A stretch of 54,972 nucleotides of DNA from Prevotella sp. (GTDB lineage Bacteria > Bacteroidota > Bacteroidia > Bacteroidales > Bacteroidaceae). Made by a program: the position numbers and the translations under genes. Location: NCBI GenBank assembly GCA_017474515.1, contig JAFVHN010000005.1, positions 1 through 54,972 of the forward strand, written 5' to 3'. Positions 3,910 through 54,760 of the stretch are shown here, piece by piece (the stretch's first letter is position 1; each line of letters opens with the position of its first letter). The notes beneath the pieces were generated by a model that was not told where the DNA came from, did not search any database, and worked only from the letters and a program-made list of their open reading frames with translations.

Positions 3910-3921
3910 TAAGGTAAAAAC

Positions 3922-4176
3922 GAAAAGTGAAAAGTGAAAAATCGGCTGGCGTCAGCAAATTTTTCACTTTTCACTTAGAATCTTTTCACTTTCCCAAAAT
4001 CCCAAAATCCCCCGAAAAGTGAAAAGTGAAAAATCGGCTGGCGTCAGCAAATTTTTCACTTTTCACTTAGAATCTTTTCACTTTCCCAAAATCCCAAAAT
4101 CCCCCGAAAAGTGAAAAGTGAAAAATCAGCTGGCGTCAGCAAATTTTTCACTTTTCACTTAGAATCTTTTCACTTA
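3922..4176. repeat. 92-bp tandem array of the GTGAARA inverted element (2.75 copies)
   Basis: Copies begin at 3922, 4014 and 4106, an exact 92-bp period. Each contains GAAAAGTGAAAAGTGAAAAA, a GGCTGGCGTCAGC core and the reverse complement TTTTTCACTTTTCACTT, so each can fold into a long hairpin. The array fills the gap between the convergent stop of the plug-like protein (3909) and ilvC (4181). The copies are nearly identical (one G/A change in the core of the third), implying recent amplification. Confidence 0.9.
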
Positions 4177-5370: not shown

Positions 5371-5569
5371 AAAAAGTGAAGAGTGAAAAGTGAAAAGTGA
5401 AAAATTTGCTGCCACCTTTCAAAAAGTGAAGAGTGAAAAGTGAAAAGTGAAGAATTTGCTGCCGCCTTTCAAAAAGTGAAGAGTGAAGAATTTGCTACCG
5501 CCGTCCGTATTTCGCCTTATAAATGGCGGCAGCAAATTCTTCACTCTTCACTTTTCACTCTTCACTTAA
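5371..5569. repeat. 50-bp tandem GTGAARA units with terminal inverted copy
   Basis: Direct units start at 5371, 5421 and 5471 (50-bp period), each GTGAARA heptamers followed by ATTTGCTGCCRCC or a close variant. An inverted copy (GGCGGCAGCAAATTCTTCAC onward) closes the structure at 5525-5569, so the last unit and the inverted copy can form a long stem. The far end is 9 bp from the esterase stop at 5579-5581. Confidence 0.85.
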
Positions 5570-9058: not shown

Positions 9059-9425
9059 CAAAGGCAGGGTAAATCTTTTTTCATGTTCAATATGACAAAG
9101 GAGTTTAGACGATAGTTCGTAGCGCGTTTTGTTGTCGTCAGCATCGGCCTTAACCATGCGATGCGAAGGTTGGCTCTTTGGAGTTCAGAGAAAAGTATTG
9201 GTTGTTTACCATGCGGATGGAGAGTGTGTTTGAACGGCCTTTGAGATGCTTGGAAACTTACGAATATGCAGTTTCGTGTTGTATAAATATGCTTGCTGGC
9301 TAACGCAAATGATGAGGGCTTGCGGTCTTGTTGGTTTTAAGTGCTTTCTTGCAAATAATAATGAGTTGAAATATAACGCTTTGTAATATGTTAATTCCAG
9401 TCCTTCTGCAAGTCGTCTGCAAATA
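9059..9425. other. Intergenic stretch without a recognisable gene
   Basis: No open frame here has codon use or motifs of a real protein. The only recurring item is one unit of the GGAGTTTAGACGATAGTT family at about 9101-9118. The rest looks like decayed or unique non-coding sequence. Confidence 0.5.
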
Positions 9426-9520
9426 GGACTGCAGTCGTATGCGGGAAGGACTGCAGTCGTTTGCGGGTTGGACTGGAGTTTTTTGCCGTTTGGACTGGAG
9501 CGATTTGCCGTATGTCCTGG
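9426..9520 (+). repeat. 22-bp tandem repeat, GGACTG(C/G)AGTCG family (4 units)
   Basis: Units start at 9426, 9448, 9470 and 9492, an exact 22-bp period. The first two read GGACTGCAGTCGTWTGCGG; the later two diverge after GGACTGGAG. The same unit recurs at 25807-25862 (opposite strand) and 45698-45806. Confidence 0.85.
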
Positions 9521-22056: not shown

Positions 22057-22079
22057 ATTTTCTTTTGAGGTTTATTTAT

Positions 22080-22285
22080 TTGGAGTTTAGGAGTTCAGGA
22101 GTTCAGGAGTTCAGACGATAGTTGTGACGTATCAAACTCATAACTCATTATTTGGAGTTCAGGAGTTCAGGAGTTCAGGAGTTCAGACGTTAGTTTGTAA
22201 CGCGCCAAACTCATAATTCATAACTCAAAACTCATAACTCAGGATTTCCTAATTCCTAACTCATAACTCATAGCTCAGGAATTCA
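22080..22285. repeat. Composite GGAGTTYAG / AACTCATAA repeat
   Basis: Two units are present, each of 3-4 direct 9-bp GGAGTTCAG copies, then ACGATAGTT or ACGTTAGTT, a short GC spacer and AACTCATAACTC words (22081-22145 and 22154-22230), followed by degenerate AACTCATAA/AATTCCTAA runs. The region spans the gap between the thioesterase and SDR genes and holds no gene. Confidence 0.8.
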
Positions 22286-25675: not shown

Positions 25676-26390
25676 AAAGTAGGGACGTGATACATCACGT
25701 CCCTACAAGGGGCATAAACACATTCCGCCGGCATTGAACACCCGTTCTGCCGAATCTTTAATTTTTTGTTAATATTGACGGGATGATTGTCGGATATGTT
25801 ATAAATGACTCCAGTCCAAACCGCATCCGACTTCAGTCCAAACCGCATCCGACTCCAGTCCTACTTAAAGACGAACTAAAGTAGGACTGGAGTATTTTCA
25901 TCCTAAAACGCTATATACCATCCCGTTATGTCTGCGCTTGTAGGGACATACTTTATATATGTCCGAAAACATCTGTTTTTATGCGCAGGCGGGCGGAAAC
26001 AAACGATGTATGGAGGCGGGCGGAAACAAAGTAGGGACATACTTTATGTATGTCCGAAAATACCTGTTTTTATGCGCAGGCGGGCGGAAACAAACGACGT
26101 ATGGAGGCGGGCGGAAACAAAGTAGGGACATACTTTATGTATGTCCGAAAATACCTGTTTTTATGCGCAGGCGGGCGGAAACAAACGACGTATGCAGGCG
26201 GGCGGAAACAAAGTAGGGACATACTTTATGTATGTCCGAAAATACCTGTTTTTATGCGCAGGCGGGCGGAAACAAACGACGTATGGAGGCGGGCGGACAT
26301 ACATAAAGTATGTCCCTACGGAACGCACGACCATTGAGAGCCGAATAGGAGCCGATACGCGTCGGCTCCTACCGCGTCGGCTTATACCTT
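25676..26390 (+). repeat. Composite non-coding repeat element, copy 1
   Basis: The order of parts is: a palindrome AAAGTAGGGACGTGAT/ATCACGTCCCTAC (25676-25706), CGTTCTGCCG (25743-25752), 22-bp units on the minus strand (25807-25862), a hairpin AGTCCTACTT/AAGTAGGACT (about 25856-25890), a unique conserved segment through TCCTAAAACGCTATAT (25904-25919), four 91-bp tandem units (25941-26294), the terminal inverted GGACATACATAAAGTATGTC (from 26295) and GAGCCGACGC hairpins (26340-26385). The same parts occur in the same order on the other strand at 45481-46141. No gene lies in the gap between the GLUG gene and sppA. Confidence 0.85.
25941..26319 (+). repeat. 91-bp tandem repeat, four units, closed by an inverted end
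   Basis: TAGGGACATACTTTATGTAT starts at 25941 (TATAT variant), 26032, 26123 and 26214, an exact 91-bp period. Each unit has the palindrome GGACATAC-TTTAT-GTATGTCC and two GGCGGGCGGAAACAAA copies. The last unit ends in the reverse complement of the first 25 bases (26295-26319). Confidence 0.92.
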
Positions 26391-31515: not shown

Positions 31516-31632
31516 AAAGTGAAAAGTGAAGAGTGAAGAATTTGCTGCCGCCATCTGATTTGCGGTTTCAATTCTTCACTCTTCACTTTTCATTTTTCAC
31601 TTTTCACTTTTCACTTTTCACTATTCACTTAG
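31510..31632. repeat. GTGAARA inverted element between convergent stops
   Basis: AAGTGAAAAGTGAAAAGTGA begins at 31510, then GAATTTGCTGCCGCCATCTG, TTTGCGGTTTCAATTC, and an extended inverted arm of TTTTCACTTTTCACTTTTCA-type heptamers. It contains both the thiL TGA (31513-31515) and, at its other end, the TAA of the convergent GH105 gene (31629-31631). It thus spans the whole gap between the two genes. Confidence 0.9.
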
Positions 31633-37031: not shown

Positions 37032-37118
37032 GCTTTTTGTGGGAAATGGTTTGACGTTAGGCACGTTGCCGCAATATAGGGGAATATGCCAGAAACACAG
37101 GGGGAAAGGAAAAGAAAA

Positions 37119-37523
37119 CAGTGCCCTTGTAAGCCGGGTTCTGTCCCTGCCGTGGGCAGGTGCCTGTCATTTATCTACTCCGAAGGTCACCCCGCGGCTC
37201 TAGCATTCCACCCTCCGTCGTTGTTCCGTTGAAAACAGAACATCGGGCGGGCAACCCTGACATGACGACGGTTTACGCGAACTTGCAGCCTCCAGTGGGC
37301 ACAGCCCGCATGGTCGCCCATGCGGCTGGTGGTCTCTTACACCACCTTCTCACCCTTGCCGCCCTGGGGCGGCGGTTGTTTTCTTCTGCCCGGTCCTGCC
37401 GTTGCCGACAGCTTCTATTTTCGGAAGTGGAGCGCCCTGTGCTGCCCGGACTTTCCTCTGGCACCAAAGTAAAAAACTGTAGAAGTCGTGATACAAGGTG
37501 CAAGCGACAGGCCGGGGCACTGC
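37119..37523 (-). ncRNA. rnpB: RNase P RNA (M1 RNA), bacterial class A
   Basis: About 405 nt on the minus strand. The conserved 5' segment GAGGAAAGTCCGGGC is at 37444-37458 and the conserved 3' segment ACAGAACCCGGCTTAC at 37131-37146. The P1 helix is formed by CAGTGCCC at the 5' end (37515-37522) and GGGCACTG at the 3' end (37119-37126), followed on the minus strand by TTTTCTTTT, which should terminate transcription. GC-rich hairpins in between fit the specificity domain. It is the catalytic RNA for 5' maturation of tRNAs. A perfect promoter precedes it. Confidence 0.95.
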
Positions 37524-45231: not shown

Positions 45232-45697
45232 TTTTTTCCCATATTTTCCAAAAAAAAGTTTACCGAGGCACTGGCGGCTTGCGGGGGTGCTGAAAAAACA
45301 TGTTCGGCAGAACGAATTGCTATGAGCCGACGTGCTATGAGCCGACGCTTCCAAACGTCGGAGTAACCAAAATAAAGGTTGTACTATATATAATAATAGG
45401 TGAAATATAAGCAATCCTTTTTTTATATACTCCGACGCTCGGAGGCGTCGGCTCCTACTGCGCGTCGGCTCCTACCGCGTCGGCTTCTATTCGTCGCTCA
45501 ATGTGCATGCTCGTAGGGACATACTTTATGTATGTCCGCCCGCCACTGTACGCCTGTCTGTTTTCGCCAGTCCGCGCATAAAACAGGTGTTTTCGGACAT
45601 ACATAAAGTATGTCCCTACATGCGCAGACATAACGGGGTGGGATATAGCGTTTTAGGATGGAAATACTCCAGTCCTACTTTAGTTCGTCTTTGAGTA

Positions 45698-45806
45698 GGA
45701 CTGCAGTCGGATGCGGTTTGGACTGGAGTCGGATGCGGTTTGGACTGGAGTCGGATGCGGTCTGGACTGGAGTCGGATGCGGTCTGGACTGGAGCCATTT
45801 GTAACA
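45698..45806 (+). repeat. 22-bp tandem repeat, GGACTGGAGTCGGATGCGG (about 4.5 units)
   Basis: Units start at 45698, 45720, 45742, 45764 and 45786, an exact 22-bp period. They are nearly identical except C/G at base 7, TTT/TCT at the end and decay in the last unit. Confidence 0.92.
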
Positions 45807-45874
45807 TATCCGACAATCATCCGTCATTTTTTTCGAAAAAATGTAAATACGGCAGAACGGTGTGACATTATTAT

Positions 45875-46111
45875 GAAACGAATTGGAGCTAATTACAACT
45901 AATTGAATTCACTAATTACAACGAAAGATTTTTTGAAACGAATTTGAACGAATTTAATTCACAAATTACAACGAATGATTTTTTGAAACGAATTGGAGCT
46001 AATTACAACTAATTTATTTCACTAATTACAACGAATGATTTTTTGAAACGAATCGGAGCTAATTACAACAAATTTATTTCACAAATTACAACTAATGATT
46101 TTGTCTTCGCT
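45875..46111 (+). repeat. AT-rich 60-bp tandem repeat (4 units, one shortened to 50 bp)
   Basis: GAAACGAATTGGAGCTAATT-type units start at 45875, 45935, 45985 and 46045. Each goes on with AATTACAACTAATTNNATTC, AATTACAACGAATGATTTTT and TT. The second unit has lost 10 bp of the GGAGCTAATTACAA section. It is inserted within composite element copy 2. Confidence 0.88.
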
Positions 46112-46180
46112 TGCGGACGCGATACATCGCGTCCCTACTTTGTGCGGTCACTGTCGGCTCCTATGTCCAGAACTTCCGTT

Positions 46181-46308: not shown

Positions 46309-46367
46309 GAAATGAAAAGAAAAACAAGTTTTCCTTTTGCATTTCGCTCGTTTATTCGTAACTTTGC
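46309..46367 (+). repeat. Promoter-bearing dispersed repeat, copy at the glycosyltransferase genes
   Basis: This 59-bp segment matches the reverse complement of 54701-54760 with two substitutions and one 1-nt gap. It contains TTTG (46336-46339), 19 bp, TAACTTTG (46359-46366), so a complete promoter is part of the repeat. Confidence 0.88.
46336..46366 (+). promoter_or_regulatory. Full consensus promoter of the glycosyltransferase operon
   Basis: TTTG, 19-bp spacer, TAACTTTG. The -7 box ends only 5 bp before the GTG start at 46372, so the transcript would be leaderless or nearly so. Confidence 0.7.
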
Positions 46368-54700: not shown

Positions 54701-54760
54701 GCAAAGGTACGGATAAACGAGCGAAATGCAAAAGGAAAACATTGTTTTTCTTTTCATTTC
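54701..54760 (-). repeat. Promoter-bearing dispersed repeat, copy at uvrA
   Basis: 60 bp that match 46309-46367 on the opposite strand apart from two substitutions and a 1-nt gap. A second, partial copy (CCAAAGGTACGGATAAACGA onward, 54779-54804) lies next to it. Function as a promoter is inferred from the box spacing. Confidence 0.88.
54702..54732 (-). promoter_or_regulatory. Full consensus promoter of uvrA-pcrA
   Basis: Minus-strand TTTG (54729-54732), 19-bp spacer, TACCTTTG (54702-54709), ending 15 bp before the ATG. Confidence 0.78.

Follow-up and report, generated by a model that had tools for sequence, protein, structure and literature searches.

Two intergenic blocks of repeats face each other in inverted orientation, about 19 kb apart, in the 54,972 nucleotides of Prevotella sp. 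contig JAFVHN010000005.1 (assembly GCA_017474515.1) that were analysed here as a whole and are called the window. The preliminary description took them for two copies of a single composite element of about 0.7 kb. The question raised by this locus is whether the parts of the two blocks belong to one mobile unit, or whether repeats of separate families lie side by side in them and were duplicated together.

The best local alignment between block A (25742–26380, plus strand) and block B (45454–45860, minus strand) scored 180, as against 8.5–12 for 20 shuffles, and it spans a run of 22-bp units, a cap hairpin, the TCCTAAAACGCTATAT segment and the first REP palindrome. The portion past the first REP (the second REP, a CATTGAG spacer and AGCCG) scored 51, where the maximum in 200 shuffles was 19. 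The parts therefore do occur in the same order in A and B, as had been described, and the homology does not consist of isolated short matches. It starts at CCGTTCTGCCG (25742 in A, 45860 in B) and ends within the GAGCCGACGC hairpins (26340–26383, plus strand, in A; 45428–45489, minus strand, in B), so that it covers about 640 bp in A and about 400 bp in B, less than the 0.7 kb first given. The longest identical run common to the two blocks is 33 bp. Since the source genome is a draft of 3.51 Mb in 118 contigs, estimated as 88% complete, an assembly artefact was considered as the origin of the pair. This is extremely improbable, because about 10% of the 219 aligned bp differ between A and B, both of which lie inside one contig, and because one of their components, E2 (described below), is present on many contigs.

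The two differences between the blocks that had been pointed out are real: a 91-bp tandem (3.9 copies, 25940–26297) was found in A only, and a 60-bp AT-rich array (45947–46102, minus strand) lies on the B side only, outside the homology. The list of shared parts needed one correction. The units, the cap, the conserved segment, the REPs and the GAGCCGACGC hairpins all belong to the homologous stretch, while the GTAGGGACG palindromes (25679–25706, plus strand, and 46115–46141, minus strand) lie about 35 bp (A) and about 254 bp (B) from the start of the homology with dissimilar DNA in between, and they were therefore taken as separate from the island. In terms of coding capacity, block B contains no ORF of at least 100 aa, and block A is entered by one 142-aa minus-strand ORF that extends to 25848 and mainly overlaps the upstream gene; the statement that no protein is encoded fits B at this cut-off and needs a reservation for A. 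Inversion of the 19-kb interval between A and B, which also holds the RNase P RNA (RF00010) at 37114–37523 on the minus strand, is possible in principle. Searches of the whole genome returned 87 matches for 25676–26390 and 123 for 45428–45900, and nearly all of the matches listed were to single parts.

The core of both blocks was named E2. Aligned copies show it to be a row of 22-bp units, then a cap hairpin of 34 nt, then a tail of 40 bp whose last letters are GTTAT. In A (plus strand) it comprises two units (25812–25855), the cap (25856–25889; predicted fold of −14.5 kcal/mol with a z score of −5.8 relative to mononucleotide shuffles) and the tail (25890–25929), and in B (minus strand) four units (45704–45791), the cap (45670–45703) and the tail (45630–45669). 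A third full copy in the window (9341–9478, minus strand), identified with a covariance model and by flank comparison, belongs to a different flank subfamily. Across the source genome 18 copies align over 120 columns with a sole gap of one base (in copy L007), many of the tail columns being variable. Exactly three units precede the cap in 15 of the 18; A has two, and B and L015 have four. Every one of the 18 caps folds, with z scores between −1.5 and −8.7 relative to mononucleotide shuffles; the cap exists in two forms, with unlike stems that nevertheless each close. The covariance model, built from these 18 copies, gave 74 matches in the source genome, 19 of them at 125 bits or more (one being independent of the model) and the rest at 79 or less. 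Full copies are spread over many contigs, and some ten of the weaker matches, when inspected, were unit arrays without the tail, one of them (L107) with a cap-like hairpin.

The flanks of these copies bear directly on the composite element. Over the 153 pairs of the 18 copies, the median flank identity was 0.40 upstream and 0.30 downstream. Between A and B it was 0.83 and 0.92, respectively, and within a trio formed by the third window copy and copies on contigs C39 and C32 it was 0.78–0.83 upstream and 0.70–0.87 downstream. Only in A–B and in this trio were both flanks at 0.70 or above; B against the trio gave 0.65–0.67 upstream, and the few other pairs near 0.7 were so on one side only. From this both-flank likeness it follows that islands have occasionally been duplicated whole. 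A and B are the only ones of the 18 aligned copies in which a palindrome of the kind named REP1 stands about 10 bp past the tail. In L012 REP1 is about 0.65 kb from the array, in L006 there is a single decayed look-alike, and the other 14 copies have no REP1 in their flanks, mostly taken as 1.5 kb on each side. The single element of about 0.7 kb rests on two copies with their parts in matching order. It was rejected, and we hold it to be very unlikely, given that only two of 18 E2 copies have REP1 close behind them, that flanks are otherwise unlike, that the GTAGGGACG palindromes and the AT-rich array fall beyond the homology, and that in the genome full E2 copies number 19 and REP1 sites 110. 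The parts are thus not peculiar to A and B, and what remains of the original proposal is a structured, repeated, non-coding and partly mobile-looking pair.

Other repeats were noted in the window. Intergenic arrays of AAAAGTG-type heptamers lie at 3921–4175, 5371–5487 and 31566–31630, one of them inside a 92-bp tandem, and outside the window similar runs adjoin some of the E2 copies. Arrays of the GGAGTTCA octamer lie inside a 72-bp tandem at 22076–22248. A 53-bp repeat occurs at 46309–46360, at a gene start, and at 54708–54760 with 96% identity, and a stretch resembling it adjoins the L005 copy of E2, ending near a TTTG that resembles a Bacteroidetes promoter element.

REP1 consists of GTAG followed by GGACATACTTTATGTATGTCC. 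In A there are four direct REPs in the 91-bp tandem and one inverted REP (25940–26319, plus strand), and in B there is one inverted pair (45513–45619, minus strand). Counted without GTAG and with at most 2 mismatches allowed, the palindrome had 110 forward and 109 reverse matches in the genome, which represent one set of sites seen from either strand; the control gave none. Among the matches listed, many form inverted pairs 47–69 bp apart from start to start, two pairs are at 237, and some sites are single. The tag adjoins the short palindrome at the REP1 sites of the window and of a locus on contig C24, where a search of the source genome with the PF01797 profile found its one gene (C24:23184, 35.5 bits with a cut-off of 23). 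This gene scored 77.7 bits, just below the cut-off of 80, against NF047646, the NCBIfam model for REP-associated tyrosine transposases (RAYTs); REP1 pairs stand on either side of it, and its protein carries NHIH, WQ and YIENNP, motifs that match the table line for RAYT subclass 2.4 in PMC6006769. With the protein as query, a weak second match (30% identity) was seen at the end of contig C3. Because of the flanking pairs and of the sequence itself, the RAYT gene and REP1 are linked; the REP1 palindromes are REPINs, and this genome's own transposase very likely spreads them. The claim that the element lacks its own transposase accordingly fails for the REP1 part.

The same arrangement was seen in other genomes. 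A RAYT search of 301 genomes of the family gave a match in 87, many of them weak, and a GTAG palindrome, differing from gene to gene, stood beside the RAYT gene in all ten loci that were examined (seven by script, three by eye) out of the 30 returned, namely L189–L192, L194–L196, L198, L199 and L203, with L193 left out. A RAYT gene with a GTAG palindrome is the known RAYT–REP arrangement, to which the ten loci add Bacteroidales cases. RAYT subclasses had already been placed in Bacteroidetes in the section of PMC6006769 that we cite, and Bacteroidetes are not among the phyla given for GTAG repeats in the cited excerpt of PMC3733652. A REP1 25-mer had no match in viral contigs.

E2 was also considered as the REP of the C24 RAYT and was excluded: none of the 18 copies has GTAG outside the stem, the tetranucleotide lying, where present, inside the cap stem of some copies, and the RAYT locus has no array. 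No transposase linked to E2 was seen: in the array loci that are titled as Bacteroidales taxa (the named loci below), the sole match to the source genome's RAYT was one of 28% in L149, which speaks against the preferred explanation given below.

The unit of E2 is a hairpin, CAGTCC-N10-GGACTG, and arrays of it were found well outside the source genome. A scan of genome contigs with a free spacer gave 60 loci, of which 49, in 25 genomes, are titled as Bacteroidales taxa; a scan with the source spacer held nearly fixed gave none, and both scans may omit the source genome. The match length was 50–52 in all 49 of these loci (a period of 22–23 bp, where 16–30 was allowed) versus one of the 11 others (52). 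The 49 loci are not independent, coming as they do from 25 genomes and including the near-duplicates L120/L129 and L132/L155, which were counted separately. Array loci numbered eight in Candidatus Bacteroides intestinipullorum, seven in Horse_feces106 and six in RUG12173. With the spacing set to 12–13, all of 26 selected genomes had matches (136 in the source genome, 2–28 in the others) and the control had none; as these genomes, the source and the 25, were picked for having matches, this result speaks to copy number and to a clean control, not to frequency.

In terms of frequency, unselected draws were barely above control and the family is sporadic, which weighs against the explanation that we prefer. 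The general unit pattern matched nine of 398 genomes of the genus, the source included, versus four with a control match; G289 (6 matches), G366 (4), G402 (4) and G439 (2) are clear beyond the source genome, and the one match each in G039, G059, G348 and G416 is chance-like. The matches in G366 share their coordinates with those in the genome of Prevotella sp. P6B1 (G1046), so that the source genome presumably belongs to the genus of P6B1. A stricter two-core pattern matched the source genome alone among 344 genomes of the order. E2 DNA, searched in 151 genomes of the family with at most five candidates scored per genome, returned the source and G165, the latter for the REP1 part only. The E2 model, run on the 398 genus genomes under strict filters with eight candidates scored per genome, returned the source and a weak match of 34.5 bits in G402. 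A short array of the E2 kind with a different spacer is present in G402 (L088, near 1500). No match to E2 was found in plasmids or phages, and none to the unit patterns in viral contigs.

The arrays are built of complete hairpins. The 49 named arrays contain 3–6 units each (mean 4.1); 45 of them lack the opposing half-site beyond the left end, and 47 lack it beyond the right. In the source-genome arrays the corresponding counts are 28 and 27 of 29. Arrays thus consist of whole numbers of hairpin units. Unit positions 1–6 and 17–22 were used in the search pattern or in the unit score, so only positions 7–16 are independent of how the units were found. Of 125 distinct units, 104 have a Watson–Crick or T-G pair at 7–16 (TA 65, CG 17, AT 4, TG 18), the remainder being 16 C-A and five others. 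By genome, the pair forms in all units of 16 of the 24 named genomes, in part of the units in seven, and in neither of the two units of Gx481; the latter eight genomes run against the preferred explanation. Pairing within the loop reached 0.54 over 133 units; 1000 shuffles of the loops averaged 0.38 and never exceeded 0.43. The unit stems are therefore extended by covariation in other genomes. Within the source genome the picture is less favourable: its units pair poorly past 5 bp, with pair 6–17 formed in 15% of 59 and a loop pairing of 0.31, and an RNAalifold consensus of its 18 E2 copies had no changes on both sides of a pair. The 11 loci from outside the Bacteroidales were excluded from the counts of array ends, pairing and loop agreement; in addition, L129 was excluded from loop pairing and from the pairing by genome, L155 from loop agreement, L103 is absent from the pair 7–16 counts and from the comparison of orthologous arrays below, and L093 from the array-end count.

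The loops, in turn, are characteristic of the genome. When loops from different loci were compared, 6.4 of 10 positions agreed if the loci shared a genome (919 unit pairs) and 3.4 of 10 if they did not (12035 unit pairs), and agreement was higher within the genome in all six genomes with enough loci. Because loops are alike within a genome and different between genomes, we infer that the arrays spread within genomes.

Sites at which a DNA-binding protein attaches, lined up in a row and spaced by about two turns of the helix, might also look like this. The steady 22–23-bp period and the core, kept across genera beside a variable spacer, are in line with such sites, with the proviso that the core was set by the search. 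The growth of the stem into the spacer through varied base pairs suits a folded strand better, and array ends at whole units are compatible with both readings. We regard protein-binding sites as unlikely.

A stronger case can be made for arrays that act as RNA, such as transcript-end elements for 3′ protection or two-way termination, which would be kept by selection and spread only by segmental duplication. An array is retained between the same genes in four Prevotella/Xylanibacter genomes, which fits inheritance or function equally with mobility. In the four orthologous arrays, which lie between convergent genes, none of 36 stem columns but 17 of 30 loop columns vary; 26 of the 36 are fixed by the search, and the other ten are invariant as well. 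The six bases preceding these arrays are invariant too, where 21 of 40 upstream columns vary. Pair 6–17 is C-G or T-G in 119 of the 125 units even though the unit score favours C there, and A–B and the trio resemble segmental duplicates. Set against this, T-G and C-A are about equally common at pair 7–16, so that no transcribed strand stands out, and Rfam at its gathering thresholds had no match for the window arrays or for 16 named loci. The gene context is also mixed. According to a rough ORF caller, 14 of the 49 Bacteroidales loci lie between convergent, 13 between tandem and four between divergent genes, with 12 within an ORF call and six at an edge; the 30 loci of the source genome comprise ten tandem, three divergent, two convergent, 14 within a mostly short ORF call and one at an edge. 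A dedicated terminator was rejected on account of this variety, and the functional RNA as a whole seems rather improbable.

The explanation that we prefer combines mobility of E2 with duplication of islands. Hairpin units of 22 nt in tandem would define a family in Bacteroidales, and E2 would be the version of it in one genome, supplemented by a cap and a tail. Its single-stranded DNA would fold into a row of hairpins, and a putative enzyme supplied in trans, the first choice by analogy with REPINs, would recognise and copy the folded strand, so that E2 would spread non-autonomously while whole islands are now and then duplicated. A and B would then be paralogous intergenic islands composed of separate short dispersed families, duplicated together and inverted. 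This joint reading is held tentatively, at a little short of an even chance. Its foundations, namely the anatomy, the copy numbers, the flank homology, the covariation in other genomes and the link between RAYT and REPINs, are directly supported; that E2 is mobile, that an enzyme acts on it and that it may have a function is inferred. Some observations speak against it. No target duplication longer than 2 bp flanks any of the 18 copies when the right end is taken from the alignment, which also answers the suggestion that flanking duplications be sought, and no empty site was seen, the four orthologous sites (L043–L046) being too dissimilar to show one.

Comparison with known systems separates the two components further. 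REP1 resembles REPINs and RAYTs (PMC3733652; see also PMC3116915) in its GTAG tag, short palindrome, inverted pairs, 110 sites and flanked RAYT gene; E2 differs in having no GTAG outside its stem and an enzyme that is only putative. The BrickBuilt MITE of Porphyromonas gingivalis, which is described in PMC4596501 with 19 forms in one strain, is like E2 an intergenic Bacteroidales element, in which a leader and a tail enclose 23-nt repeats in tandem. Its unit, AGAYCATARTATCCTCTCRTRTG, is unlike that of E2 when compared by eye, and it has terminal inverted repeats of about 12 nt that are IS5-family-like. None were found in E2, whose ends as placed here (CAGTCC on the left, GTTAT on the right, the latter defined from the alignment) are non-complementary. 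The STAR elements of staphylococci are likewise interspersed intergenic direct repeats, a likeness by description only (PMC3532100).

BOX elements of Streptococcus pneumoniae are modular intergenic repeats, composed of boxA, boxB and boxC, that have, as in E2, a repeated inner unit and fixed ends. They differ from E2 in sequence, unit length and lineage.

A search of an incomplete collection of open-access literature gave no description of the CAGTCC-N10-GGACTG unit and no related title among those listed. The view that the locus is undescribed therefore applies to E2, as far as was searched, and not to REP1, which belongs to a known kind. It is possible, although we put this somewhat below evens, that the CAGTCC-N10-GGACTG arrays, as rows of 3–6 tandem 22-nt hairpins, represent a class of dispersed Bacteroidales element not described before, whose stem is common to several genera and whose loop is private to each genome, and which spreads within genomes by some putative machinery. 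If this family is real, a major group of animal-associated bacteria would have a second hairpin-repeat system beside REPINs, and the persistence and spread of repeats that have no visible enzyme of their own would become testable.
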